Assembly: GCA_018241325.1 (NCBI GenBank)
Contig: JAFEEB010000029.1
Span: 1 to 35,104 of the forward strand
From: Pseudomonadota bacterium
GTDB taxonomy: Bacteria > Pseudomonadota > Gammaproteobacteria > Burkholderiales > Burkholderiaceae_C
Length of the DNA: 35,104 nt
Direction of reading: 5' to 3'
Shown here piece by piece: positions 15,220 through 35,104 of the stretch. The notes beneath the pieces are model-generated. The model worked only from the letters and a program-made list of their open reading frames with translations. It searched no databases and had not been told where the DNA came from. Position numbers and translations under genes: made by a program. How positions within the stretch are numbered: position 1 is the stretch's first letter; each line of letters opens with the position of its first letter.

Positions 15220-16011
15220 ATGGACTTGGGAATGGCCGGCAAATGGGCGCTGGTGTGCGGCGCCAGCAAGGGCCTGGGCCTGGGCTGCGTGCAGGCGCTG
15301 GCGGGCGAGGGCGCCAACGTGCTGATGGTGGCGCGCGGCGCCGAGGCACTGCAGGCTTCGGCCGCGGCCCTGCGCCAGCGCGTGGGCGCCGGCGTGCAGG
15401 TGCTGGCGGTGGCGGCCGACATCACCACCGCCGAAGGGCGCGCGGCGGTGTTCGCCGAGCGCGCCGATTTCGATATCGTGGTCACCAACGCCGGCGGCCC
15501 GCCCATGGGCAGCTTTCGCGACTGGGATCGCACGGCCTGGATCAAGGCGGTGGACGCCAACATGCTCACGCCCATCGAGCTGATCAAGGCCACGATCGAC
15601 GGCATGCTGGCGCGCGGCTTCGGGCGCGTGGTCAACATCACCTCCAGCGCGGTCAAGGCGCCGATCGACGTGCTGGGCCTGTCCAACGGCGCGCGCTCGG
15701 GCCTGACGGGTTTTGTTGCCGGGCTGGCGCGCAACCCCCAGATCGCGGCCAAGGGCGTCACCATCAACAACCTGCTGCCCGGCAAGTTCGACACCGACCG
15801 GCTGGCCGGGCTGATGCAGGGCATGGTCAAGCAAAGCGGCAAGACCGTGGACGAGGTGCGCGCCGCGCAGGCCGCGCCCATTCCAGCCAAGCGCTTCGGC
15901 ACGCCGGCCGAGTTCGGCGCGGTCTGCGCCTTCTTGTGCAGCCAGCAGGCGGCCTACCTGACGGGGCAGAACATCCTGCTGGATGGCGGGGCGTATCCGG
16001 GAACTTTTTGA
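15220..16011 (+). CDS. Atypical SDR-family oxidoreductase lacking the catalytic tyrosine
   Basis: A 263-residue short-chain dehydrogenase-like protein. The cofactor loop CGASKGLGLG (13-22) and TNAGGPP (89-95) are kept, and the C-terminus LTGQNILLDGGAYPGTF is classical. The active site is not: after the TSS at 141-143, the YxxxK position reads S155-N-G-A-R159. Tyrosine and lysine are therefore replaced by serine and arginine. This LSNxxR pattern is characteristic of a subgroup of 'BKR-like' SDRs known to depart from the normal tetrad, so the gene is not simply damaged. AAGGAG at 15206-15211 supports the start. The stop is followed directly by a dispersed repeat. Function is unknown. Confidence 0.85.
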   Translation: MDLGMAGKWALVCGASKGLGLGCVQALAGEGANVLMVARGAEALQASAAALRQRVGAGVQVLAVAADITTAEGRAAVFAERADFDIVVTNAGGPPMGSFRDWDRTAWIKAVDANMLTPIELIKATIDGMLARGFGRVVNITSSAVKAPIDVLGLSNGARSGLTGFVAGLARNPQIAAKGVTINNLLPGKFDTDRLAGLMQGMVKQSGKTVDEVRAAQAAPIPAKRFGTPAEFGAVCAFLCSQQAAYLTGQNILLDGGAYPGTF

Positions 16012-16012
16012 C

Positions 16013-16336
16013 CCCCCCAGTCTCCACTCGCGGCGCGATGTTTCGCCTCCCCCTCTAGTACTGCGACCCGAAAGTATCGAAACATGAAATCGCGCCTTCG
16101 CACGCATGGCGGCGTTGCAAATCCTCGCAATAGCTTCGGCTATTGCTGCGGTTTGCGCCTTGCCCTGCGCGCGAATTCATCGATTTCGTCTTGTTCCTCT
16201 ACTTCCGGGTCGCAGTACTAGGGGCATCGCCAGTGACCGGGGAAACCCCGGCCACGGCGATCGCTGGCCTGGCCTGCTCCGCGGCCGTTGGGCCCTTTGC
16301 GTTTCATCGGCTGCGGGTGGCGCGCAACGCCATGGA
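16013..16336 (+). repeat. Hairpin-rich dispersed repeat, copy 2, split by an insert
   Basis: The left part (CCCCCCAGTCTCCACTCG to 16055) and the right part (from GGGGCATCGCCAGTGACC at 16221 to about 16336) match copies 1 and 3 in order, including the CCGGGGAAACCCCGG hairpin and the GCGTTTCATCG tail shared with copy 3. A 161 bp fold-back element lies between the two parts. The copy begins right after the SDR stop and fills the gap to the end of the convergent EamA gene. No coding potential is convincing in these 340 bases. Confidence 0.88.
16056..16220. mobile_element. MITE-like 161 bp fold-back element with TA flanks
   Basis: Terminal inverted repeats GTACTGCGACCCG (from 16058) and CGGGTCGCAGTAC (to 16218) match across 18 bases with one mismatch when extended to the next five bases. 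Both ends are bounded by TA (16056-16057 and 16219-16220), consistent with the TA duplication made by IS630/Tc1-mariner-type transposases. The interior is a further imperfect palindrome centred on GCAATAGCTTCGGCTATTGC (16117-16136). No transposase is encoded, so it would be non-autonomous. It interrupts copy 2 of the hairpin-rich repeat, so it arrived after that repeat. Confidence 0.8.
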
Positions 16337-16350
16337 TCACTGACCAGTGT

Positions 16351-17247
16351 TCAGCGCCGCGCGGCCACCCAGATGCCGAGCACGATCAGCGCAAACGCCA
16401 GGCCGTGGTACAGCTGGGGCGCCTCGCCCAGAAACAGCGCCGACAAGATGGCGGCAAAGACTGGCGTGAGGTTGGAGAAAAACCCGGCGACAGCCGGCCC
16501 CGCGCGCTCCACCCCCAGGCCCCAGCAGCGATAGGCCAGCACGGCGGGGCCCACCGCCACGAAGAGCAGGGCCGCGGCGAGCGGCCAGGATGGGTGGATG
16601 AACGCATCGCCCGTGGCCCATTCGGCGCCCGCGAACAGGCCCGACCAGCCCAGGCCGAAGCCCACCTGCCCCAGCAGCAGCGCGGCCCAGTCGGCGCGCA
16701 GCCGTGTGGGCTCGCCCGCCCGCGCGGGCAGCAGCCACGAATACCAGGCCCAACAGAGCGTGGCCAGCAGCATGTACAAGTCCCCGGGCACCAGTTGCAA
16801 CTGCGCCAATTGCTGCCAGCGCCCGCGCGCCAGCACCACCAGCACCCCGGCCATGGACAGCGCGACACCGGCCATCTGCATGCGGGTCACGCGCATGCCG
16901 AAGAACAGCCGACCCAGCGCCAGCATCCACAGCGGCATGGTGGACGCCACCAGCGTCACGTTGACGGGCGTGGACGTGCGCAGCGCCAGGTATTGCAGCG
17001 CGTTGTAGCTGCCCACGCCCAGCAGCCCCATAAGCGCGTAGCGCCGCCACATCGGCCACAAGCCGCTGCCGCGCCGCAACACCCAGGGCGCCAGCGGCAG
17101 CAAGATGCAAAACGCCAGGCACCAGCGGATGAAGTTCAGCGTGATCGGCGACACCAGGCCCACCACCGCGCGGCCGACCACCGCATTGCCGGCCCACAGC
17201 AGGGTCGAGGTGGTCAGCAGGGCGGCGGTGGTGGCGGTCAGGCGCAT
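16351..17247 (-). CDS. EamA/DMT-family transporter (second)
   Basis: A 298-residue inner-membrane protein with about ten hydrophobic segments and two EamA repeats. The first repeat has LLWAGNAVVGRAVVGLVSPI and LNFIRWCLAFCILLPLAPWV; the motif ASTMPLWMLALGRLFFGMR ends the first half, and FSNLTPVFAAILSALFLGE ends the second. Likely a metabolite exporter of the plasma membrane; the substrate is unknown. It is only distantly like the EamA gene at 14258, so it is not a recent duplicate. It is divergent from the quinone oxidoreductase, with 99 bases between the start codons. ATG at 17247 is chosen because hydrophobic sequence begins right after it; no clear ribosome site is seen. Confidence 0.86.
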   Translation of the reverse strand: MRLTATTAALLTTSTLLWAGNAVVGRAVVGLVSPITLNFIRWCLAFCILLPLAPWVLRRGSGLWPMWRRYALMGLLGVGSYNALQYLALRTSTPVNVTLVASTMPLWMLALGRLFFGMRVTRMQMAGVALSMAGVLVVLARGRWQQLAQLQLVPGDLYMLLATLCWAWYSWLLPARAGEPTRLRADWAALLLGQVGFGLGWSGLFAGAEWATGDAFIHPSWPLAAALLFVAVGPAVLAYRCWGLGVERAGPAVAGFFSNLTPVFAAILSALFLGEAPQLYHGLAFALIVLGIWVAARR

Positions 17248-26235: not shown

Positions 26236-27423
26236 TTACAAAACCACCGGCACCTCGGTTGCTGGCGGCGTGTTGCGGCTGCGCCCGCAGCGCACCAGGC
26301 CGTCGATCATCACCATGCCGATGCCGGGGATGTCGCCCAGTTGAACGCTATCCAGCAGGTCGCGCCCGGCCGAGTGCTGGGCCTTGTCCATGAAGACGAA
26401 GTCGGCCGCGCGGCCCACTTCGATCAGGCCGCAATTGAGCCGGCGCATGCGCGCCGTGTTGCCGGTGGCAAAGCCGAACACCAGCTCGGCCGGGATGCCG
26501 GCAAAGCTGGAGATCAGCGCGATCATGCGCAGGATGCCCAGCGGCTGCACGCCCGATCCGGCGGGCCCGTCGGTGCCCAAAATCACGCGGTGCGGGCACT
26601 TCAACTCGATGGCCGCGCGCGCCGCCTCGATGGCGATCTTCTCGTTGCCGTTGTGCACCAGCTCGATGGCGCGGCTGGATTTTTCGCACAGCTCGCACAC
26701 GTGCTTCCAGGGCAGCGCGGTGTGGCCGCCGTTGATGTGGCCGATGATGTCGGCATCGGCCGCCAGCACCACGTCCTTGTCGATCAGGCCGGAGCCCGGA
26801 ATCGACGGACCGCCCGTGTGGATGGTGCTCTGGATGCCGTACTTGCGCGCCCAGGCCACCATCTGCTGCGCCTCATCGCCGGCCTTGACCGAGCCCAGGC
26901 CGACTTCGCCCAGCAGCTTGACGCCGGCGTCGGCCAAGTCCTTGAAGTCCTGCTCGACCATGCCCTTTTCGATCACCGGCGCGCCGGCCAGCACCTTCAC
27001 GCCACCGGGGCGAAAGTTGTCGAACGCGCGCTGCGCCGTGATGGCCAGCGCCTTGAGGCCGACGATGTCCTTGGGGCGGCCGGGCAGGTGCACTTCGCCG
27101 GCCGAGATCATGGTGGTCACCCCCCCGTTCATGGTGGATTCGATCCAGCCCAGCTGGCCCTGGCGCGGCGTCCAGTCGCCGAACACCGGGTGCACATGGC
27201 TGTCGATCAGGCCGGGCGCCACGGCGGTGCGGCGCGCGTCGATGGTGTGCCTGGCGCCCTCCAGGTCGCAGTCGCTGCGTTTGCCCACGGCGGTGATCAG
27301 GCCGTCGTTGACCACGATGGTGTCGGCGTCCAGGATCGGCCGGTCGATGTCGCCCGAGAGCAGCAGGCCGATGTGGGTGATGACGATCTTGCCGGACTTT
27401 TCGGTGGGGGCGGCTTCTGCCAT
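26236..27423 (-). CDS. Enamidase-like metal-dependent amidohydrolase
   Basis: A 395-residue amidohydrolase-superfamily enzyme. The metal site begins with GLIDSHVHP (H76, H78); further candidate ligands are H202 (IHTGG), H229 and H234 (GHINGGHTALP) and D285 (ILGTDGPAGSG). It most resembles enamidase of anaerobic nicotinate fermentation, which hydrolyses the enamide ring of tetrahydro-6-oxonicotinate and releases ammonia. AAGGAG lies upstream of the ATG at 27423; the longer frame is not needed. It is the last gene of fdxA-fpr-tetR-amidohydrolase and is divergent from a 6-hydroxynicotinate-reductase-like gene, the enzyme that precedes enamidase in that pathway. The substrate in this organism is inferred, not shown. 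Confidence 0.75.
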   Translation of the reverse strand: MAEAAPTEKSGKIVITHIGLLLSGDIDRPILDADTIVVNDGLITAVGKRSDCDLEGARHTIDARRTAVAPGLIDSHVHPVFGDWTPRQGQLGWIESTMNGGVTTMISAGEVHLPGRPKDIVGLKALAITAQRAFDNFRPGGVKVLAGAPVIEKGMVEQDFKDLADAGVKLLGEVGLGSVKAGDEAQQMVAWARKYGIQSTIHTGGPSIPGSGLIDKDVVLAADADIIGHINGGHTALPWKHVCELCEKSSRAIELVHNGNEKIAIEAARAAIELKCPHRVILGTDGPAGSGVQPLGILRMIALISSFAGIPAELVFGFATGNTARMRRLNCGLIEVGRAADFVFMDKAQHSAGRDLLDSVQLGDIPGIGMVMIDGLVRCGRSRNTPPATEVPVVL

Positions 27424-27448
27424 GGCAGGCTCCTTGTTGCGTGCAGGT

Positions 27449-28138
27449 TCAGGGTTTGACGGTGCGCAGCACCGCATCGACGGCGAAGGCGTGCCAGTCT
27501 TGCAGCGCCTGGCTGCTGTCCAGCTTGTCACCGAAAAAGGCCGACAGCGTGTGACGGTTGGACAGGTAAAAGTAGTTCAGGCTGGCGATCATCAGGTACA
27601 GATCGCGCGCCGAAACGCCGGCGCGAAACACGCCCTGCGCCGCGCCGCTGGCCAGCACCGTGTCCAGGATGCGCGTGGCCGGTGACGAATAGTCGTGCGC
27701 CCGCAGCGACTTGGCGATGTGCTTGCCGCGGTGCAGGTTCTCGTCGTTGAGCAGGGTGATGAACTCGGGGTTGCGCTGGTAGTAGGTCCAGATGAAGCCG
27801 ATCACGGCGACCAGCGCCTGCTCGGGCGCGTCGGCATTCAGCTTGAGCGCCGCCTCGGCCTCGTTGAAGCGCCGGTACAGGTTTTCGAGAACGGCGATGT
27901 ACAGGCCTTCCTTGCTCCCGAAATAGTAGTAGATCATGCGGTCATGCGACTTGGCCGCCTTGGATATCTGCTCCACCCGTCCGCCCGAAAACCCGTGTTT
28001 GGCGAAGATGCGCGTGGCCGCGCGCAAGATGGCGTCCTGCGTTTCCTGGGCCGCCCGCTCGCGCACACCGGGCTTGCGCCCGGGCTTGGCCAGGCCCCTC
28101 AGCGCGCTGCGACCGGGCGGAGCGATGTCGGTCTTCAT
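27449..28138 (-). CDS. TetR-family regulator, RutR-like
   Basis: A 229-residue TetR-type repressor. The helix-turn-helix runs from about residue 45 to 79 (IFAKHGFSGGRVEQISKAAK, then MIYYYFGSKEGLY). The ligand-binding domain with its YYQRNPEFITLLNDENLHRG segment recalls RutR/YcdC-type regulators, several of which sense pyrimidines or other small N-compounds. The N-terminal 20 residues are basic and probably disordered. Its ATG overlaps the fpr stop (28135-28138), and the amidohydrolase follows after 25 bases, so it is embedded in the operon it most likely controls. Its operators may be the repeats in the divergent region 29248-29402. Confidence 0.85.
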   Translation of the reverse strand: MKTDIAPPGRSALRGLAKPGRKPGVRERAAQETQDAILRAATRIFAKHGFSGGRVEQISKAAKSHDRMIYYYFGSKEGLYIAVLENLYRRFNEAEAALKLNADAPEQALVAVIGFIWTYYQRNPEFITLLNDENLHRGKHIAKSLRAHDYSSPATRILDTVLASGAAQGVFRAGVSARDLYLMIASLNYFYLSNRHTLSAFFGDKLDSSQALQDWHAFAVDAVLRTVKP

Positions 28139-28908
28139 GAGTCGGCAAAGGCCCGTTCAATCACGAAATCGCCCGCACGCGTGGTGTTTCCTTCCTTGAA
28201 CCCTCGCGCCTCCAGCAGATGGCGCAAGTCCTTGAGCATGGCTGGGCTGCCGCAAATCATGGCTCGGTCGGTGGCAGCGTCCAGTGGTGGCACGTCGAGG
28301 TCGGCGAACAACTTGCCCGACTCGATCAAGTCAGGCACGCGCCCGACGTTGCGAAAATTTTCGCGCGTGACGGTGGGGTAATACAGCAGCTGACCAGCAA
28401 TCATGTCGCCCAGGAACTCATGGTTGGGCAGGTGCTGAAGGATCACGTCGTGATAGGCCAGCTCGCCCACGGTGCGCACGCCGTGCACCAGGATGATCTG
28501 CTCGAACTTCTCGTAGCTCTCGGGGTCGCGGACGATGCTCATGAAGGGCGCCAGCCCCGTGCCGGTCGAAAACAGATACAGGCGCTTGCCCGGCAGCAGG
28601 TAGTCCACCACCAGGGTGCCCGTGGGCTTGCGCCCGACGACGATGGAGTCGCCCGGCTGGATGTGCTGCAGGCGCGAGGTGAGCGGGCCGTCCTCCACCT
28701 TGATGCTGAGGAACTCCAGATGGTCCTCATAGTTGGGCGAGGCGATGCTGTAGGCGCGCAGCAGCGGTTTGTCGTTCACGCGCAGGCCGATCATGGTGAA
28801 GTGGCCGTTGGAAAAGCGCAGCGCCGCGTCGCGCGTGGTGGTGAAGCTGAACAGCCGGTCGGTCCAGTGGTGCACGCGGAGCACGCGCGCTTCGATGAAG
28901 GCACTCAT
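28135..28908 (-). CDS. fpr: Ferredoxin-NADP+ reductase
   Basis: A 257-residue FAD-dependent reductase of the bacterial Fpr type, exchanging electrons between NADPH and ferredoxin or flavodoxin. RAYSIASPNY (51-60) is the FAD-binding RxYS motif, FSTGTGLAPFMSIVRDPE the NADP pyrophosphate loop, and MICGSPAMLKDLRHLLEARG the nicotinamide-side segment. It ends with AFADS rather than the Trp ending of E. coli Fpr. It follows fdxA by 15 bases, so the two make a natural NADPH-to-ferredoxin couple. Its stop overlaps the TetR start. Placement opposite an Fe-S reductase gene suggests it feeds electrons to that enzyme. Confidence 0.92.
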   Translation of the reverse strand: MSAFIEARVLRVHHWTDRLFSFTTTRDAALRFSNGHFTMIGLRVNDKPLLRAYSIASPNYEDHLEFLSIKVEDGPLTSRLQHIQPGDSIVVGRKPTGTLVVDYLLPGKRLYLFSTGTGLAPFMSIVRDPESYEKFEQIILVHGVRTVGELAYHDVILQHLPNHEFLGDMIAGQLLYYPTVTRENFRNVGRVPDLIESGKLFADLDVPPLDAATDRAMICGSPAMLKDLRHLLEARGFKEGNTTRAGDFVIERAFADS

Positions 28909-28923
28909 GATGGTCGGGGGCGT

Positions 28924-29247
28924 TCAGGCCGTCAGCGTGGCGTACTTGTTGGCCCGGTCTTTCCACTGCTCGGCGTCGGGCAGCGGCTCGCGGCTTTTGG
29001 AGATCACCGGCCATTGGGGGGCCAGATCCCGGTTGATCGCGGTGAAGTGACGCTGGTCGGCCGGCAGGTCTTCCTCGGCATAGATGGCGTTGACCGGGCA
29101 CTCGGGGATGCACACCGCGCAGTCGATGCACTCGTCGGGGTCGATCACCAGAAACTGCGCCCCCTCCTTGAAGCAGTCCACCGGACACACATCCACGCAG
29201 TCGGTGTACTTGCAGCGCACGCAGGCGTCGGTGACGACGTGGGTCAT
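28924..29247 (-). CDS. fdxA: 7Fe ferredoxin FdxA
   Basis: A 107-residue seven-iron ferredoxin. By comparison with Azotobacter FdI, C9, C17 and C50 should hold the [3Fe-4S] cluster and C21, C40, C43 and C46 the [4Fe-4S] cluster; the extra C12 and C25 are also typical. [20 protein letters not shown] and [14 protein letters not shown] contain them. AGGAG stands upstream of the ATG at 29247. It is the first gene of the minus-strand operon, next to fpr, and divergent from a reductase whose known relative uses ferredoxin as donor. Confidence 0.94.
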
Positions 29248-29402
29248 GAAAGCTCCTGGGCCTGGCGTGCCGACGTGGTGCAGGCGTGCGTGAGTCGCGC
29301 GTTTTTCATCCGGAAAAGACTACACCAGAATTTTCCACTTCGGTTCAGGGTTTACTCCATGTTGATTCAGTGGTTACTCCATTAAATTGGCAAGGCCACG
29401 CC
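29248..29402. promoter_or_regulatory. Divergent control region with a direct repeat and a palindrome
   Basis: This gap separates fdxA (minus) from the reductase gene (plus) and should hold both promoters. TTACTCCAT occurs twice, at 29352-29360 and 29374-29382, exactly 22 bases apart (two helical turns). GGAAAA at 29312-29317 and TTTTCC at 29331-29336 form an inverted repeat. TTGATT at 29362-29367 followed by TAAATT at 29383-29388 is a possible plus-strand promoter with a short 15-base spacer that overlaps the second TTACTCCAT. The repeats are seen; their use by the TetR protein is inferred. Confidence 0.55.
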
Positions 29403-29432
29403 ATGCGCGCGGCCCACCGATTCCGCTGCCCG

Positions 29433-31046
29433 ATGACCGAACACACCCGTACCGACGGCTTGCCCGAGCTGGCCGAACCCCAGGTGCTCGAGCGCGCCCG
29501 CCCGCGCAACGAGCGCATGGCGACCACCAAGGTGGAGTGCAACGCCTGCCCCATCCTGTGCCAGATCGCCGAGGGCCGCACCGGCGCGTGCGACCGCTAC
29601 GCCAACCAGGGCGGCGTGCTGATCCGCGTCGATCCGGTCGTGCTGCTGCGCAAGACCGTGGATGAAGGGCGCGCGCCCCTGGTGCAGTTCAGCGGCCGGG
29701 TGGTGCAGGACACGGGCGACGCCGCGGGGGAGGTGTCGCAGTCCCCCGATTGGGACGGCGACCTGCTGCGGGCCAACGAGGTGTTCGTCACCGGCATCGG
29801 CTCGTCCACCACCTATCCCGACTACAAGCCCGCGCCCTTCATTGTCGGCTCGCAGGCCGATGGGGTGGACATGGTGACGGTGGTCACCGAGGGCATTTTC
29901 AGCTATTGCAGCCTGAAGGTGAAGATCGACACCGACCGCTACCTGGGTCCCGAGCAGGCCAACGTGCGCTGCAGGGGCGAGGTGGTGGGTCACGTCACCA
30001 CGGCCGAATACGGCTCGCAGATGCTGTCGCTGGGCGGGGTGCATCACCTCACGGGCGGCAGCAAGAAGGAAGGGCGCGTCACCCTGGAGGTGATGGAGCA
30101 ACTGAGCAACAAGCAGGCGGTGGAGCTGGCCATCGACGGCGGCTCGCAGATCGCGATTGCCGCCGGTCAGGCGCCCATCGTCAACGGCGTGACGGAGCAG
30201 CGCATGCGCGTGGGCTGCGGCTCGGCCACGGTGGGCATCTTTGCCAAGCAGCTTTACGGCCAGGTCGATGAGGTGGTGGTGGTGGACGACCACATCACCG
30301 GCGTGCTGAGCGAGCACCAGGCCGGGCGCTGCCTGGACATGCGTCCCTCGGGCGTTGCCATGCGCGGGCGCAAGTCCACGCCGGGGCGCTATTTTCAGGT
30401 GGCCGATCCGGGCACGGGCTGGGGCGGCACTTCCATTTCCGATCCCTTGTCCGTCATCGAGGGCTGGGACGCCCAGGTGGCCTGGCCCGGCCTGCGCCTG
30501 CTCATGACCTCCACCACCGGCGAGCACGCCGCCTGGTACGTGCTGGACGAGCAACTCGTGCCGCGCGAGCAGCCCATGCCGGCGGGCGTGCACGCCGTGG
30601 TCGAGCGCATCGGCGAGAACTGCGAGCCCTCGCTCGCCACGGTGCTGTTCGTGGGCGGCGCCGGCGGCAGCCTGCGCGCCGGCGCCACCGAAAACCCGGT
30701 GCTGCTCACGCGCGCCATCAAGAACGCGCTGGTCAACGTCACCTGCGGCGGCGCGCCGGCCTACGTGTGGCCGGGCGGTGGCATCACCGTGATGGTCGAT
30801 GTGATGCGCATGCCCGATCGCAGCTTCGGCACCGTGCCCACGCCGGCCATCGTGGCGCCCATCGAGTTTTCCATGCGCCTGGCCGACTACGCCGCGCTGG
30901 GCGGCCACGTCAAGAACGTGCGCCCGCTGCAGGACGTGCTGCGCACGGGCGCCTGGCACAACGACGGCGCGCCCACGCGGCGCCTGTGGGCGCCAGGCAA
31001 CCCGGGCAACCCGTGGCCCCTGGGCCACCCGCCCCAATTGGGCTGA
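29433..31046 (+). CDS. 6-hydroxynicotinate-reductase-like Fe-S protein
   Basis: A 537-residue protein I assign to the 6-hydroxynicotinate reductase family, whose known member in Eubacterium barkeri reduces the pyridone ring with ferredoxin. An N-terminal cysteine group VECNACPILC (C36, C39, C43), with C53 after nine more residues, suits an Fe-S cluster. Conserved-looking glycine-rich blocks follow: GIGSSTTYPDYKPAPF, GGVHHLTGGSKKEGR and CGGAPAYVWPGGGI (438-451). No signal peptide or membrane helix is seen. Neighbours supply ferredoxin, its reductase and an enamidase-like hydrolase, matching that chemistry. ATG 29433 is chosen; ATG 29403, with AAGG ahead of it, and ATG 29518 are alternatives. 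The real substrate could be another N-heterocycle. Confidence 0.7.
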   Translation: MTEHTRTDGLPELAEPQVLERARPRNERMATTKVECNACPILCQIAEGRTGACDRYANQGGVLIRVDPVVLLRKTVDEGRAPLVQFSGRVVQDTGDAAGEVSQSPDWDGDLLRANEVFVTGIGSSTTYPDYKPAPFIVGSQADGVDMVTVVTEGIFSYCSLKVKIDTDRYLGPEQANVRCRGEVVGHVTTAEYGSQMLSLGGVHHLTGGSKKEGRVTLEVMEQLSNKQAVELAIDGGSQIAIAAGQAPIVNGVTEQRMRVGCGSATVGIFAKQLYGQVDEVVVVDDHITGVLSEHQAGRCLDMRPSGVAMRGRKSTPGRYFQVADPGTGWGGTSISDPLSVIEGWDAQVAWPGLRLLMTSTTGEHAAWYVLDEQLVPREQPMPAGVHAVVERIGENCEPSLATVLFVGGAGGSLRAGATENPVLLTRAIKNALVNVTCGGAPAYVWPGGGITVMVDVMRMPDRSFGTVPTPAIVAPIEFSMRLADYAALGGHVKNVRPLQDVLRTGAWHNDGAPTRRLWAPGNPGNPWPLGHPPQLG

Positions 31047-31049
31047 CGG

Positions 31050-31970
31050 ATGACGGCGCAGTGCACCACCTTGCCCGACGGGCGGCTTCACTTGCAGCAT
31101 GGCCCGATGGACATCGTCATCGGCGCCGACGGGGATACAGAGGCCGTGCGCGAGGCCCATGCCGATGCGGGGCAGCGCTTTCGCGGCTTGCTGGACGAGC
31201 TGGTGGTCGAGCTGCCCGCCCTGCGCGCGCCCATCGCCCGCGGCAGCCCCTTGCGCGGCCCGGTGGCGCGGCGCATGGGGCAGGCGGTGTGGCCTTATCG
31301 CGATGTCTTTGTCACGCCCATGGCGGCGGTGGCCGGCGCGGTGGCGCAGGAGCTGGTGGCGTTTTACCAGTGCCCCGGCGTGCGCCGCGCCTGGGTCAAC
31401 AACGGCGGCGACATTGCTTTGCACCTGACGGCGGGCGAGCGCTTTCGCATCGGCCTGTTTGCCGACGTGGATCAGTGGCCGCGCGCGCTGGCCGCGCAAG
31501 GCTTGGCGGTGGACGCCGTGTTTGACGTGACCCACGACAGCCCCGTGCGCGGTGTGGCCACCAGCGGCTGGAAAGGACGCAGCTTCTCGCTGGGAATTGC
31601 CGACAGCGTGACGGTGCTGGCCGCCACCGCGGCCCAGGCCGATGCGGCGGCCACCATCGTCGGCAACGCGGTGGACGTGGCGCATCCTGGCATCGTGCGC
31701 CGCCCCGCCAACACCTTGCGCGAGGACAGCGACCTGGGTGCGATCGAGGTGACGGTGGACGTGCCGGCCCTCACGCCCGCGCAGGCCCAGGCGGCGTTGG
31801 CGGCGGGCCGGGCCAAGGCGCTGAATTTGCAGCGCACGGGCCACATCGTTTCGTGTGTAATCACCTGCCAGGGCTGGGCCGCGTCAACCGAAGGCGTACC
31901 CGGGCGTTTTTTGTCCCTTGACCCCATGGCGAAGGAGCCGGCGCAGCGCCTGCTGCTGGAGACTGCATGA
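31050..31970 (+). CDS. UPF0280/COG2122 (ApbE-like) protein
   Basis: A 306-residue protein of the UPF0280 family, distantly related to the flavin transferase ApbE. RRAWVNNGGDIALHL (112-126) and ATSGWKGRSFSLGIADSVTV (170-189) parallel the ApbE regions that bind FAD and magnesium. No lipoprotein signal is present, unlike many ApbE proteins, so it should act in the cytoplasm. As I recall, an archaeal COG2122 member has been tied to sulfide assimilation, but the biochemical function is not settled. Three bases separate it from the reductase gene, and its stop overlaps the next ATG, so it belongs to the same operon. It may mature or flavinylate the reductase; this is a guess from context. Confidence 0.8.
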   Translation: MTAQCTTLPDGRLHLQHGPMDIVIGADGDTEAVREAHADAGQRFRGLLDELVVELPALRAPIARGSPLRGPVARRMGQAVWPYRDVFVTPMAAVAGAVAQELVAFYQCPGVRRAWVNNGGDIALHLTAGERFRIGLFADVDQWPRALAAQGLAVDAVFDVTHDSPVRGVATSGWKGRSFSLGIADSVTVLAATAAQADAAATIVGNAVDVAHPGIVRRPANTLREDSDLGAIEVTVDVPALTPAQAQAALAAGRAKALNLQRTGHIVSCVITCQGWAASTEGVPGRFLSLDPMAKEPAQRLLLETA

Positions 31971-32608
31971 TCGAGATTCGACGCACCCACGCGCACGTGG
32001 AAGACATCTTCCACGAGTTCGGCCCGCCGGCTGCCGAGCCGCTCAAACGCGGTTTCATCGCCGCTGTGCTGACCAACCCCTTTGCCGGTCGCTACGAGGC
32101 CGACATCCTGCCCATGATGGATGCGCTCAACGCCGTGGGTACGCAAATGGCGCACCAGTTGCTGGCCGCCATGGCGGTGCCGGCCGAGCAAATCCAGAGC
32201 TACGGCAAGGGCGCCATCGTGGGCGCCGCCGGCGAGCTGGAGCACGGCGCGCTGTGGCACGTGCCCGGCGGCTACGCCATGCGCGAGCTGCTGGGCTGGA
32301 GCGGCGACCGCGCGGCCTACACGCAAGGTCAGGGCGAGGCCAAGACGGGTCAGCCCGGCAATGCGCTGTCCATCGTGCCCTCCACCAAGAAGGTCGGCCC
32401 GCCCGGCTGCACGCTGGACGTGCCGCTCACCCACATCAACGCCAGCTACGTGCGCAGCCACTTCGATGCCATCGAGGCGCGCGTGCCGGGCAGCCCGCTG
32501 GCCGACGAGGTGATTTACGTGCTGGCCATGTCCTGCGGCCCGCGGGTGCACGCGCGCGTGGGTGGGCTCAAGGCTGCCGATATTTCGAAGTGGGACGGCT
32601 TGCGCTGA
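31967..32608 (+). CDS. DUF1185 'amino acid synthesis' family protein A
   Basis: A 213-residue member of the DUF1185 (AA_synth) family, function unknown despite the name. Family blocks are LTNPFAGRYEADI (35-47), SYGKGAIVGAAGELEHGAL (78-96) and YVRSHFDAIEARV (161-173). Compared with the second copy directly downstream, it carries about 20 extra residues near 110-131 (WSGDRAAYTQGQGEAKTG). It starts within the stop of the COG2122 gene (ATGA, 31967-31970), so the two are probably coupled in translation. The fold, as I recall from a solved relative, is chorismate-mutase-like and oligomeric. A role in ring-opening or isomerisation of the pathway product is conceivable but unproven. Confidence 0.85.
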   Translation: MIEIRRTHAHVEDIFHEFGPPAAEPLKRGFIAAVLTNPFAGRYEADILPMMDALNAVGTQMAHQLLAAMAVPAEQIQSYGKGAIVGAAGELEHGALWHVPGGYAMRELLGWSGDRAAYTQGQGEAKTGQPGNALSIVPSTKKVGPPGCTLDVPLTHINASYVRSHFDAIEARVPGSPLADEVIYVLAMSCGPRVHARVGGLKAADISKWDGLR

Positions 32609-32633
32609 CCCCTTTTATTGAAAGAGCAACACC

Positions 32634-33218
32634 ATGGCTGCAAAAATTCGCAAACTGGTCGTGCAGGTCGATGAAACCCGCATCGAGATGGGCCAGGCCG
32701 TCAACCCGCCCACGCGCCGCGCGCTGGCGATGGCGGTGATCGAGAACCCGTATGCCGGGCGCTACGAGGCCAAGCTGGACGCGCTGATCGACATCGGCGA
32801 GGAACTGGGCGCGCTGCTGGGCCAAAAGTGCGTGGCTGCCTTGGGCATTGCGCCGGGCCAGGCGCACAGCTACGGCAAGGCCGCCATCGTCGGCGAGGCC
32901 GGCGAGCTGGAGCACGCCGCCGCCATCTTGCACCCCAAGCTGGGCGCGCCGCTGCGCAAGGCGGTCGAGAAGGGCGCCGCCCTGGTGCCCTCGGCCAAGA
33001 AGCGCGGCGGCCTGGGCACGGCCGTGGATGTGCCCCTGGGCCACAAGGACGCCGCCTTCGTGCGCAGCCACTTCGACGCCATCGAGGCGCGCGTGTCCGA
33101 TGCGCCGCGTGCGGGCGAGATCGTGGTGGCCGTGGCCGTGACCGACAGCGGGCGCCCGCTGCCGCGCATCGGCGGGTTGCAGGTCGGCGAGATCAAGGGT
33201 GAAGATGGTTTGAGGTAA
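32634..33218 (+). CDS. DUF1185 'amino acid synthesis' family protein B
   Basis: A 194-residue paralog of the gene just upstream. The same blocks are present: IENPYAGRYEAKL (36-48), SYGKAAIVGEAGELEHAAA (79-97) and FVRSHFDAIEARV (142-154), and both proteins end in DGLR. Outside these blocks the two differ strongly, so the duplication is old and both copies have been kept under selection. GAAAGAG lies upstream of the ATG at 32634. Two unlike subunits could form a mixed oligomer, or each could act on its own substrate. No catalytic residue is known to me. Confidence 0.85.
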   Translation: MAAKIRKLVVQVDETRIEMGQAVNPPTRRALAMAVIENPYAGRYEAKLDALIDIGEELGALLGQKCVAALGIAPGQAHSYGKAAIVGEAGELEHAAAILHPKLGAPLRKAVEKGAALVPSAKKRGGLGTAVDVPLGHKDAAFVRSHFDAIEARVSDAPRAGEIVVAVAVTDSGRPLPRIGGLQVGEIKGEDGLR

Positions 33219-33277
33219 GCAAGGCAGTCCCGCAGTGCGTGTGTTTGACAACTGACTCAATCAAGGAAGGAACGACC

Positions 33278-34492
33278 ATGTCGAAGTTCAAGATGAATGC
33301 CGTGCGCCGCGCCCTGCTGGCCGGTGCTGCGGGCCTGGTGCTCGCGGGGGGCGCCCAGGCGCAAGGCACGCTCAAGATCGGCGAAGTCAACAGCTACAAG
33401 GCGCAGCCGGCGTTCCTGGAGCCCTACAAAAAGGGCATGGAGCTGGCGGTGGACGAGATCAACGCCTCCGGGGGCCTGCTGGGCCGCAAGGTCGAGCTGG
33501 TGATTCGCGACGACAACGCCAACCCCGGCGAGGCCGTGCGCGCCGCCGAAGAGCTGCTCTCGCGCGAGAAGGTGGATGTGCTGATGGGCGGCTTCCTGTC
33601 CAACATCGGCCTGGCGCTGACCGACTTCGCCAAACAAAAGAAAACCTTCTTTCTGGCCGGCGAGCCGCTGACCGACAAGATCGTCTGGGCCGACGGCAAC
33701 CGCTACACCTATCGCCTGCGGGCCTCCACCTACATGCAGGTGGCCATGCTGATCCCCGATGTGGTGGCAATGAAGAAGAAGCGCTGGGCGCTGGTCTACC
33801 CCAACTACGAATACGGTCAGTCGGCCGCGGCCAGCTTCAAGGCCCTGTTGAAGGCCGCGCAGCCGGACGTGGAGTTCGTGACCGAGCAGGCCCCGCCGCT
33901 GGGCAAGGTGGACGCCGGCAGCGTGGTGCAGGCGCTGGCCGACGCCAAGCCCGACGCCATCTTCAACGTGCTGTTCGGCGCCGATCTGACCAAGTTCGTG
34001 CGCGAGGGCAACACCCGCGGCCTGTTCAAGGGCATCGAGGTGGCCAGCCTGCTGACCGGCGAGCCCGACTACCTGGACCCGCTCAAGGACGACGCGCCCA
34101 ACGGCTGGCTGGTGACGGGCTACCCCTGGTATGGCATCAAGACGCCCGAACACCAGGCCTTCCTGAAGGCCTACGAGGCCAAGTTCAAGGACTACCCGCG
34201 CCTGGGATCGGTGGTGGGTTATTCGGCCATCAAGTCGATCGAGGCGGGCGTCAAGAAGGCCGGTGCCACCGACACCGACAAGCTGGTGACAGCCTTCAGC
34301 GGCTTGAACGTGGGCACGCCCTTCGGCCCCATCGTGTATCGCCCCGAAGACCACCAATCGACCATGGGCGCCTACGTGGGCCGCACCAAGAATGAAGGAG
34401 GCAAAGGCGTGATGGTGGACTTCCGCTACGTGGACGGTGCCAAGGTCCTGCCTTCGGCCGCCGAAGTCAAGAAGCTGCGTCCGGCGGAATGA
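33278..34492 (+). CDS. Branched-chain-type ABC transporter substrate-binding protein
   Basis: A 404-residue periplasmic binding protein of the LivK/Peripla_BP_6 type. The signal peptide is MSKFKMNAVRRALLAGAAGL to about residue 28, with an AQA-QG cleavage site. The mature protein begins GTLKIGEVNSYKAQPAFLEP and has GMELAVDEINASGGLLGRKV and DDNANPGEAVRAAEELL, standard for family members that bind amino acids, aromatic acids, amides or urea. AAGGAAGGA just ahead of the ATG at 33278 is a strong ribosome site. Being part of the same plus-strand run as the reductase and DUF1185 genes, it probably captures the pathway substrate. Its ligand cannot be read from the sequence. Confidence 0.9.
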   Translation: MSKFKMNAVRRALLAGAAGLVLAGGAQAQGTLKIGEVNSYKAQPAFLEPYKKGMELAVDEINASGGLLGRKVELVIRDDNANPGEAVRAAEELLSREKVDVLMGGFLSNIGLALTDFAKQKKTFFLAGEPLTDKIVWADGNRYTYRLRASTYMQVAMLIPDVVAMKKKRWALVYPNYEYGQSAAASFKALLKAAQPDVEFVTEQAPPLGKVDAGSVVQALADAKPDAIFNVLFGADLTKFVREGNTRGLFKGIEVASLLTGEPDYLDPLKDDAPNGWLVTGYPWYGIKTPEHQAFLKAYEAKFKDYPRLGSVVGYSAIKSIEAGVKKAGATDTDKLVTAFSGLNVGTPFGPIVYRPEDHQSTMGAYVGRTKNEGGKGVMVDFRYVDGAKVLPSAAEVKKLRPAE

Positions 34493-34660
34493 CCCTCCCC
34501 CAGTCTCCACACGCTGCGCGTTGTTTCGCCTGCCCCCTCGAAGGGGGCATCGCCTGTGACCGGGGAATCGCCGGCCACGGCGATCGCTGGCTTGGCCTGC
34601 TCCGCGGCCATTGGACTCTTTGCGTTTCATCGACTGCGGGTGGCGCGCGGCGCGATGGAC
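34493..34660 (+). repeat. Hairpin-rich dispersed repeat, copy 3, inside the ABC operon
   Basis: It begins right after the binding-protein stop with CCCAGTCTCCACACGCTGCG, then CCCCCTCGAAGGGGG, a CCGGGGAATCGCCGG hairpin and GGCGATCGCTGGC, and runs on through TGCGTTTCATCG as copy 2 does. It occupies the 175-base gap before the LivH permease gene and encodes nothing convincing. Its hairpins could reduce transcription into the permease genes. Confidence 0.88.
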
Positions 34661-34667
34661 GACGGAC

Positions 34668-35104
34668 ATGAACCTCTTCGGCCTGGTGGTCCAACTGCTC
34701 AACGGCCTGTCCGGCGCGTCGTCGCTGTTCCTGGTGTCGGCGGGCCTGTCGCTGATCTTCGGCGTCACGCGCATCGTCAACTTTGCCCACGGCTCGTTCT
34801 ACATGGTGGGCATCTATGTGGCCTACGCGCTGGTGGAGCGGCTGAACTGGCTGGGCTTCTGGCTGGCGGTGCCCGCCGCGGCGCTGGTGGTGGGGCTGCT
34901 GGGCGTGGTGGTGGAGATGACGGTGCTGCGCCGCATTTACCGCGCGCCCGAGCTGTTCCAGCTGCTGGCCACCTTCGCCCTGGTGCTGGTCATCAAGGAC
35001 GCCATGCTGTGGCTGTTCGGCCCCGAGGAGCTGCTGGGCCCGCGCGCGCCGGGCATGAAGGGCGCGGTGGACATCCTGGGGCGCAACTTTCCCAGCTACG
35101 ACCT
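34668..35104 (+). CDS. livH: Branched-chain-type ABC transporter permease LivH, 3'-truncated by the window edge
   Basis: The open frame from ATG 34668 runs off the end of the window (145 complete codons visible). It encodes MNLFGLVVQLLNGLSGASSL, then LSLIFGVTRIVNFAHGSFYM, the signature first helices of LivH permeases, then several more hydrophobic helices. It should form the inner-membrane channel for the binding protein encoded upstream. LivM and the LivG/LivF ATPases are expected beyond the window. The start is the first in-frame ATG after the repeat; no strong ribosome site is seen (GACGGAC lies just upstream). Confidence 0.9.
   Translation, partial: MNLFGLVVQLLNGLSGASSLFLVSAGLSLIFGVTRIVNFAHGSFYMVGIYVAYALVERLNWLGFWLAVPAAALVVGLLGVVVEMTVLRRIYRAPELFQLLATFALVLVIKDAMLWLFGPEELLGPRAPGMKGAVDILGRNFPSYD

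Follow-up and report, generated by a model that had tools for sequence, protein, structure and literature searches.

A predicted reductive nicotinate catabolism cluster in a betaproteobacterium, and candidate partners for the orphan families COG2122 and DUF1185

Two kinds of described gene cluster serve the degradation of nicotinate by way of 6-hydroxynicotinate reductase (HNR). The fermentation cluster of Eubacterium barkeri provides the HNR and enamidase steps, the enamidase having been solved as PDB entry 2VUN, and the route, as Alhapel is said to have set it out in 2006, is reportedly anaerobic with later steps that run via hydroxymethylglutarate rather than glutarate, 2-formylglutarate undergoing reduction and not loss of CO2. 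A nicotinate cluster holding the genes for the first three steps, HNR among them, together with an ATP-binding cassette (ABC) importer and conserved proteins of unknown function, has been described from Azorhizobium caulinodans, Bradyrhizobium japonicum, Rhodopseudomonas palustris HaA2 and strain SG-6C (PMC3511419). Here we analyse the first 35,104 bases (positions 1-35104, referred to below as the window) of contig JAFEEB010000029.1, which is 128,458 bases long and belongs to a betaproteobacterial draft genome of 3.82 Mb. Like both kinds of cluster it carries HNR and enamidase genes, and like the second it adds an importer and proteins of orphan families, in this case COG2122 (UPF0280) and two copies of DUF1185 (Table 1). 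Compared with the cluster of PMC3511419, to which it is likened by description and not by gene order, the window has a divergent enamidase-tetR-fpr-fdxA arm, and on its contig a hydroxylase with a fused cytochrome c stands last. The window is most simply read as a betaproteobacterial member of that kind of cluster, and the idea in a first-pass annotation of this DNA that the route may be new gives way to a matching cluster already in print. The pathway is already known, and the novelty lies in strong indications of the steps that its helper genes serve.

Gene identities were taken from family matches (Pfam, NCBIfam and sequence comparison with the PDB), and every gene named in the first-pass annotation is present as a long open reading frame with high G+C content at third codon positions; all but the reductase gave such matches. 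The amidohydrolase (PF01979) is identical to the E. barkeri enamidase 2VUN at 178/380 residues (E 4.2e-104), and the HVH, GEVGLG, HTGG and HINGG motifs coincide in the alignment of the two. The reductase is 65-89% identical to its 80 relatives, several of which, on plasmids, bear the annotation '6-hydroxynicotinate reductase', and it is on these relatives and that annotation, not on the E. barkeri or Azorhizobium sequences, that we predict it to be HNR. Beyond the window edge (L004, contig 30001-50000) the importer continues with LivM, LivG and LivF, and a hydroxylase pair lies directly downstream of LivF. Its first member, a [2Fe-2S] protein (contig 38530-39057), starts 3.4 kb beyond the edge; the second (contig 39054-42704) is 1216 residues long and combines domains for molybdopterin binding with cytochrome-c domains, and among its PDB relatives are the cytochrome-c and large subunits of a molybdenum aldehyde dehydrogenase (8GY3). 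The nicotinate dehydrogenase subunits of 3HRD are also among the PDB relatives of the hydroxylase, and we take the combination of a [2Fe-2S] protein with molybdopterin and cytochrome-c domains to be the make-up of the aerobic nicotinate hydroxylase of the NicA/NicB type. A molybdenum hydroxylase with cytochrome c (contig 38530-42704) and an importer consisting of LivK, LivHM, LivG and LivF are therefore both encoded, with nicotinate as the predicted substrate of the former and probably the cargo of the latter. The first-pass annotation, noting that no hydroxylase lay in the window, had argued for a different heterocycle; because the molybdenum hydroxylase lies just past the edge this argument falls, and the cluster had looked odd because the edge cut through a well-conserved nicotinate cluster. 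The search beyond position 35104 that the same annotation had proposed yielded, besides these genes, two acyl-CoA dehydrogenases on the minus strand beyond the hydroxylase (L004:14222-15337 and 15503-16711), the best, below-cut-off matches of which are pimeloyl-CoA dehydrogenase subunits.

The arrangement of these genes is widely shared. A search for relatives of the reductase gave 117 stretches that matched a pattern, of which 102 were confirmed and the best 80 kept as loci. COG2122 directly follows the reductase in 80/80 of them, the gap between matches being 6-174 bases (median 18), and because of this conserved adjacency chance is excluded as an explanation of the arrangement. DUF1185 copy b (at least 60% identity) is found in 71/71 loci that reach at least 1.9 kb past COG2122, and copy a in 60 of the same 71. 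An enamidase of at least 55% identity is present in 68/80 loci, and the only one of these without copy b (L030) ends within the DUF1185 region. TetR was found in 67 of the 80 loci, fpr in 51, fdxA in 18 and a match to the hydroxylase in 63, of which 55 reach at least 55% identity and eight are more distant; these four counts are lower bounds as many contigs are short. Genes that were not conserved together, or a reductase and amidohydrolase with unrelated chemistry, would have spoken against the reductive N-heterocycle module of reductase, enamidase and importer that the first-pass annotation had put forward; the 80/80 adjacency, the wider conservation and the 2VUN match instead bear the module out. 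Its view that COG2122 and DUF1185 have no place in the pathway does not hold, since almost every relative has both in its cluster and the two can be assigned different partners.

We infer from the gene content that the cluster very probably serves to break down nicotinate aerobically along the reductive, Azorhizobium-type route, here in a chromosomal or large-contig setting. The Liv-type importer would bring in nicotinate, which the hydroxylase past the window would convert to 6-hydroxynicotinate; HNR would reduce this to 1,4,5,6-tetrahydro-6-oxonicotinate with electrons passed from NADPH via Fpr to FdxA or other ferredoxins, and the enamidase would open the ring to give 2-formylglutarate and ammonia. 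COG2122 would serve maturation or cofactor handling specific to HNR, and DUF1185, above all copy b, would be a candidate for the step from 2-formylglutarate to glutarate semialdehyde and CO2. Some observations weigh against this scheme. The chain from NADPH through Fpr and FdxA to the reductase, as the first-pass annotation had drawn it, is plausible, but its carriers are optional, fdxA and fpr not being fixed parts of the cluster; no genes for later glutarate steps were recognised in the cluster; and a search of 23 HNR-positive genomes for the enamidase at E 1e-40 found one in 11 and none in the remaining 12. HNR alone is therefore no proof of the pathway. These 12 genomes, and the several settings in which the HNR family occurs, with hydantoinase/caprolactamase-like or isochorismatase-family genes nearby in some genomes, are what might be expected if the cluster degraded another N-heterocycle and nicotinate were only the nearest known case. 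This locus, however, combines a hydroxylase beside the importer with the enamidase and a DUF1185 of the copy b lineage, and the hydroxylase had seemed to be lacking only because the window ends short of it; another substrate is very unlikely here.

The HNR clusters of the enamidase-less genomes have neighbours of their own. Hydantoinase/oxoprolinase genes lie near HNR at L138 and L139, a gene resembling caprolactamase alpha (511 bits against a cut-off of 1000) at L148, and a gene of the isochorismatase family together with a CitMHS_2 transporter at L149; L143 was scanned for CitMHS_2 only. The neighbours at L138, L139, L148 and L149 may open rings in place of the enamidase, perhaps those of different substrates, and it is in such clusters, not in the window, that a new route could lie.

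Eight cysteines of HNR (C36, C39, C43, C53, C159, C262, C300 and C397) are conserved without exception across 32 aligned members, and four of these residues form a C-x2-C-x3-C-x9-C motif, which is fitting for Fe-S clusters. The protein has no match at E 0.001 in Pfam or NCBIfam and, by sequence, no relative of note with a solved structure in the PDB, while a fold search with its model (mean predicted local distance difference test score, pLDDT, 74) returned 384 matches at E <=10 and none at 0.001. A below-cut-off match to GCV_T_C recurs in 31/32 members (best E 0.0042). The model thus has no confident fold match to guide ideas on how HNR would reduce a pyridone ring. In one genome the HNR match falls into two adjoining pieces (G016:C1:2969811-2971261), and that gene may be frameshifted or split.

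The occurrence of COG2122 is closely tied to that of HNR. Among 299 genomes of the phylum HNR is found in 21, and COG2122 above cut-off in exactly those 21, with one further match, below cut-off, in G293. A sample of 250 genomes of the order, which overlaps the phylum sample (G000, G207 and others), has HNR in 20 and COG2122 in 20, both being present in 19 of the 21 genomes with either; five more of its genomes have below-cut-off COG2122 matches. On plasmids, COG2122 accompanies HNR in 26/26 records. Because HNR and COG2122 lie on different contigs in G348 and G467 and about 13.5 kb apart in G430, tight linkage is not the sole cause of their co-occurrence. On balance, we regard COG2122 as more likely than not to be an HNR-specific partner in maturation or cofactor handling. 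This assignment has to be set against G437, with HNR and no COG2122 on a contig that ends there; against G397, where COG2122 and DUF1185-b stand with an enamidase match that has an internal stop and where no HNR match was found even though the sequence covers 3.8 kb upstream of COG2122; against G473 (68% complete), in which COG2122 is matched in part and the hydroxylase and enamidase in pieces, while HNR is not matched; and against the fact that the simplest such role, ApbE-type flavin transfer, is itself disfavoured, as set out below.

A 27th plasmid record with COG2122, that of Hydrogenophaga sp. BPS33 plasmid pBPS33-1 (L134), is without HNR. It carries COG2122 in four places, and in the L134 stretch two copies lie in repeated units with an IS1071 transposase and a Rieske protein.

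The structural resemblance of COG2122 to ApbE suggests one specific role, namely that of a true flavin transferase attaching a covalent flavin to HNR. The HNR of E. barkeri is said, after Alhapel 2006, to carry such a flavin. A Foldseek search with COG2122 found 2o34 and ApbE structures at E about 2e-4 and probability 1.0, which we accept as an ApbE-like fold even though the template modelling scores to ApbE structures are low (0.35-0.42); 31/32 COG2122 members have a weak PF02424 match, the window protein falling under the cut-off, and the GGD, TSG and AD-x3-T elements of ApbE are kept. The flavin of the E. barkeri enzyme, the fold, the PF02424 match and the tight co-occurrence with HNR favour flavin transfer. 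The H-x-x-D-P-x-T-G segment that holds H257 in Vibrio cholerae ApbE is missing from COG2122, however, the spacing from TSG to SVTV being 12 residues as against 30, and the loss of this segment makes ordinary flavin transfer doubtful. The canonical target motif D-x-x-[ST]-G-A-[ST] is likewise absent from HNR (0/32 members), and the host genome already has two ApbE genes above the Pfam cut-off. COG2122 as a plain ApbE is weakened accordingly and a flavin transferase is unlikely; a partner in HNR maturation or cofactor handling is the reading that we prefer. COG2122 has so far been known from homocysteine synthesis by a DUF39/NIL-ferredoxin/COG2122 system (PMC5764234), which resembles the window in that a COG2122 protein is required alongside a ferredoxin-linked system and differs from it in COG2122 subfamily and in substrate; methanogen COG2122 proteins score below the NF003322 cut-off and belong to another subfamily. 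A kinship of HNR with DUF39, which would unite the two COG2122 systems, was considered and rejected, no DUF39 being among the Pfam matches of HNR at E values up to 10.

DUF1185 has a different partner. Both window copies match PF06684 (cut-off 27 bits), copy a at E 5.4e-66 (222 bits) and copy b at E 1.2e-70 (237 bits), and copy b matches PDB 2QTP at E 1.4e-86 over 192 residues. In a FastTree phylogeny of a subset of DUF1185 proteins, a clade with support 0.986 unites window copy b with members from 11/11 enamidase-positive HNR genomes, and DUF1185-b is found in 0/12 enamidase-negative ones. Nine of these 12 are in the tree and three were judged otherwise: the genome of G139 is without any PF06684 match, G071 has a single DUF1185 that is copy-a-like by identity, and G331, as also G324 in the tree, was judged from fetched stretches only. 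In a second set of 18 genomes of the order, with DUF1185 called by identity in fetched stretches only, the enamidase is close (77-84% identity) in seven, distant (38-41%) in three and absent from eight. Copy b (79-86%) is present in 6/6 assessable genomes with the close enamidase, the contigs of G437 being too short, and in 0/10 without it, the fragmentary G473 being set aside; a copy-a-like gene (49-52%) occurs in nine of these ten, G415 being the exception. A DUFa-DUFb-enamidase triplet stands away from HNR in G123 and G194 (L157, L158), and in three further genomes (G289, G238 and G367, the last at L229) DUF1185 adjoins an enamidase-like gene of 40-41% identity. One DUF1185 lineage, that of copy b, tracks the enamidase and not HNR. 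Two genomes count against the association, as no DUF1185 was found within the 14 kb fetched around the distant enamidase-like genes (38-39%) of G447 and G483.

The enamidase-like genes of 40-41% identity that the enamidase search of the 299 phylum genomes returned lie at L197:4624-5910 and L203:5631-6809, both adjoining DUF1185 in genomes without HNR. One of the two has an HpaB-type hydroxylase in its vicinity; close to the other are an AMP-binding enzyme and a flavin adenine dinucleotide (FAD) monooxygenase.

A possible function is suggested by L168, where DUF1185 is found with an alpha/beta hydrolase, a flavin reductase, a luciferase-like monooxygenase and an aldehyde dehydrogenase, and which we take to be a trigonelline-type (tgn) cluster. 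Such clusters resemble the window in having DUF1185 beside a hydrolase and, presumably, a 2-formyl dicarboxylate intermediate; they differ in following an oxygenase route with the monooxygenase, reductase and dehydrogenase just named. Because the nicotinate and trigonelline routes both pass through a 2-formyl dicarboxylate that loses CO2, we suggest that DUF1185 would act on the enamidase product 2-formylglutarate, and offer decarboxylation as a tentative assignment. Counting against it, 2-formyl dicarboxylic acids can lose CO2 unaided. DUF1185 may quite possibly be an imine/enamine deaminase, a tautomerase or a hydrolase-stabilising partner and no decarboxylase at all, as would agree with the different hydrolases among its neighbours, although the CO2-losing intermediate is the feature that the two routes share. 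TgnF of the trigonelline pathway is described as stimulating succinate semialdehyde oxidation, while HcdD, a DUF1185 relative in a coumarin pathway, had no effect in tests (PMC7913881), a result that favours such other roles over decarboxylation. The Bacillus chorismate mutase-like fold reported for DUF1185 proteins (PMC2954203, a paper without any mention of 'nicotin') points the same way; the enamidase, on the other hand, is reported to be bifunctional and to deaminate by itself (PMC9304392), which argues against a separate deaminase.

Taken jointly, the proposals that DUF1185 proteins are 2-formyl-dicarboxylate decarboxylases in several N-heterocycle pathways and that this COG2122 subfamily is an essential maturation factor of HNR are doubtful. 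If both were true, the substrates of DUF1185 would be 2-formylglutarate in the nicotinate and 2-formylsuccinate in the trigonelline pathway, and 2QTP, which we take to be S. pomeroyi SPO0826 (3BYQ presumably being BB2672), would be the structure of a nicotinate-pathway enzyme and not of an amino-acid-synthesis protein. The value of the locus lies in the partners that it assigns to two orphan families, HNR to COG2122 and the enamidase to a lineage of DUF1185. No publication linking COG2122/UPF0280 or DUF1185 to HNR or the enamidase was found, most subscription papers lying outside the literature covered.

Table 1. Features of the window with their positions, strands and supporting evidence.
Feature	Position	Strand	Basis
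Enamidase (ena-like amidohydrolase)	26236..27423	-	2VUN match; probable start ATG 27423
TetR-family regulator (RutR-like)	27449..28138	-	PF00440, PF17938; RutR 57 bits, under cut-off
Ferredoxin-NADP reductase (fpr)	28135..28908	-	PRK10926 family 152 bits, under cut-off 390
fdxA ferredoxin	28924..29247	-	NF045490 163 bits, cut-off 135
Divergent control region, about 185 bases	29248..29432	.	spans fdxA ATG to likely reductase ATG
Predicted 6-hydroxynicotinate reductase (HNR)	29433..31046	+	relatives; plasmid annotation; likely start ATG 29433
COG2122/UPF0280, ApbE superfamily without catalytic-His loop	31050..31970	+	NF003322 369 bits, cut-off 290
DUF1185 copy a	31967..32608	+	PF06684; tree
DUF1185 copy b, enamidase-linked lineage	32634..33218	+	PF06684; PDB 2QTP; tree
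LivK-type substrate-binding protein	33239..34492	+	PF13458 E 2.7e-73
livHM-type permease, first part; probable start	34668..35104	+	broken by window edge and 68-N gap

Some gene boundaries were revised. The matches of most relatives of the reductase begin at about ATG 29433, and the single divergent control region that the first-pass annotation had recognised is therefore present at about 185 bases, not 155; the start chosen for the enamidase likewise removes its overlap with tetR. At the other end, livHM is interrupted by 68 consecutive N just where the window finishes (contig 35105-35172; L004:5105-5172), and an apparent frameshift in this gene was rejected, as the assembly gap at the window edge mimics one. 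The palindrome CTACAT-N-ATGTAG was looked for in the control region of the window and not found. It lies about 60-165 bases ahead of HNR in 15/79 loci, for example L008, L026 and L043, one locus with fewer than 200 upstream bases having been excluded; shuffled sequences gave a mean of 0.01 loci, and the palindrome is likely to be the operator of TetR.

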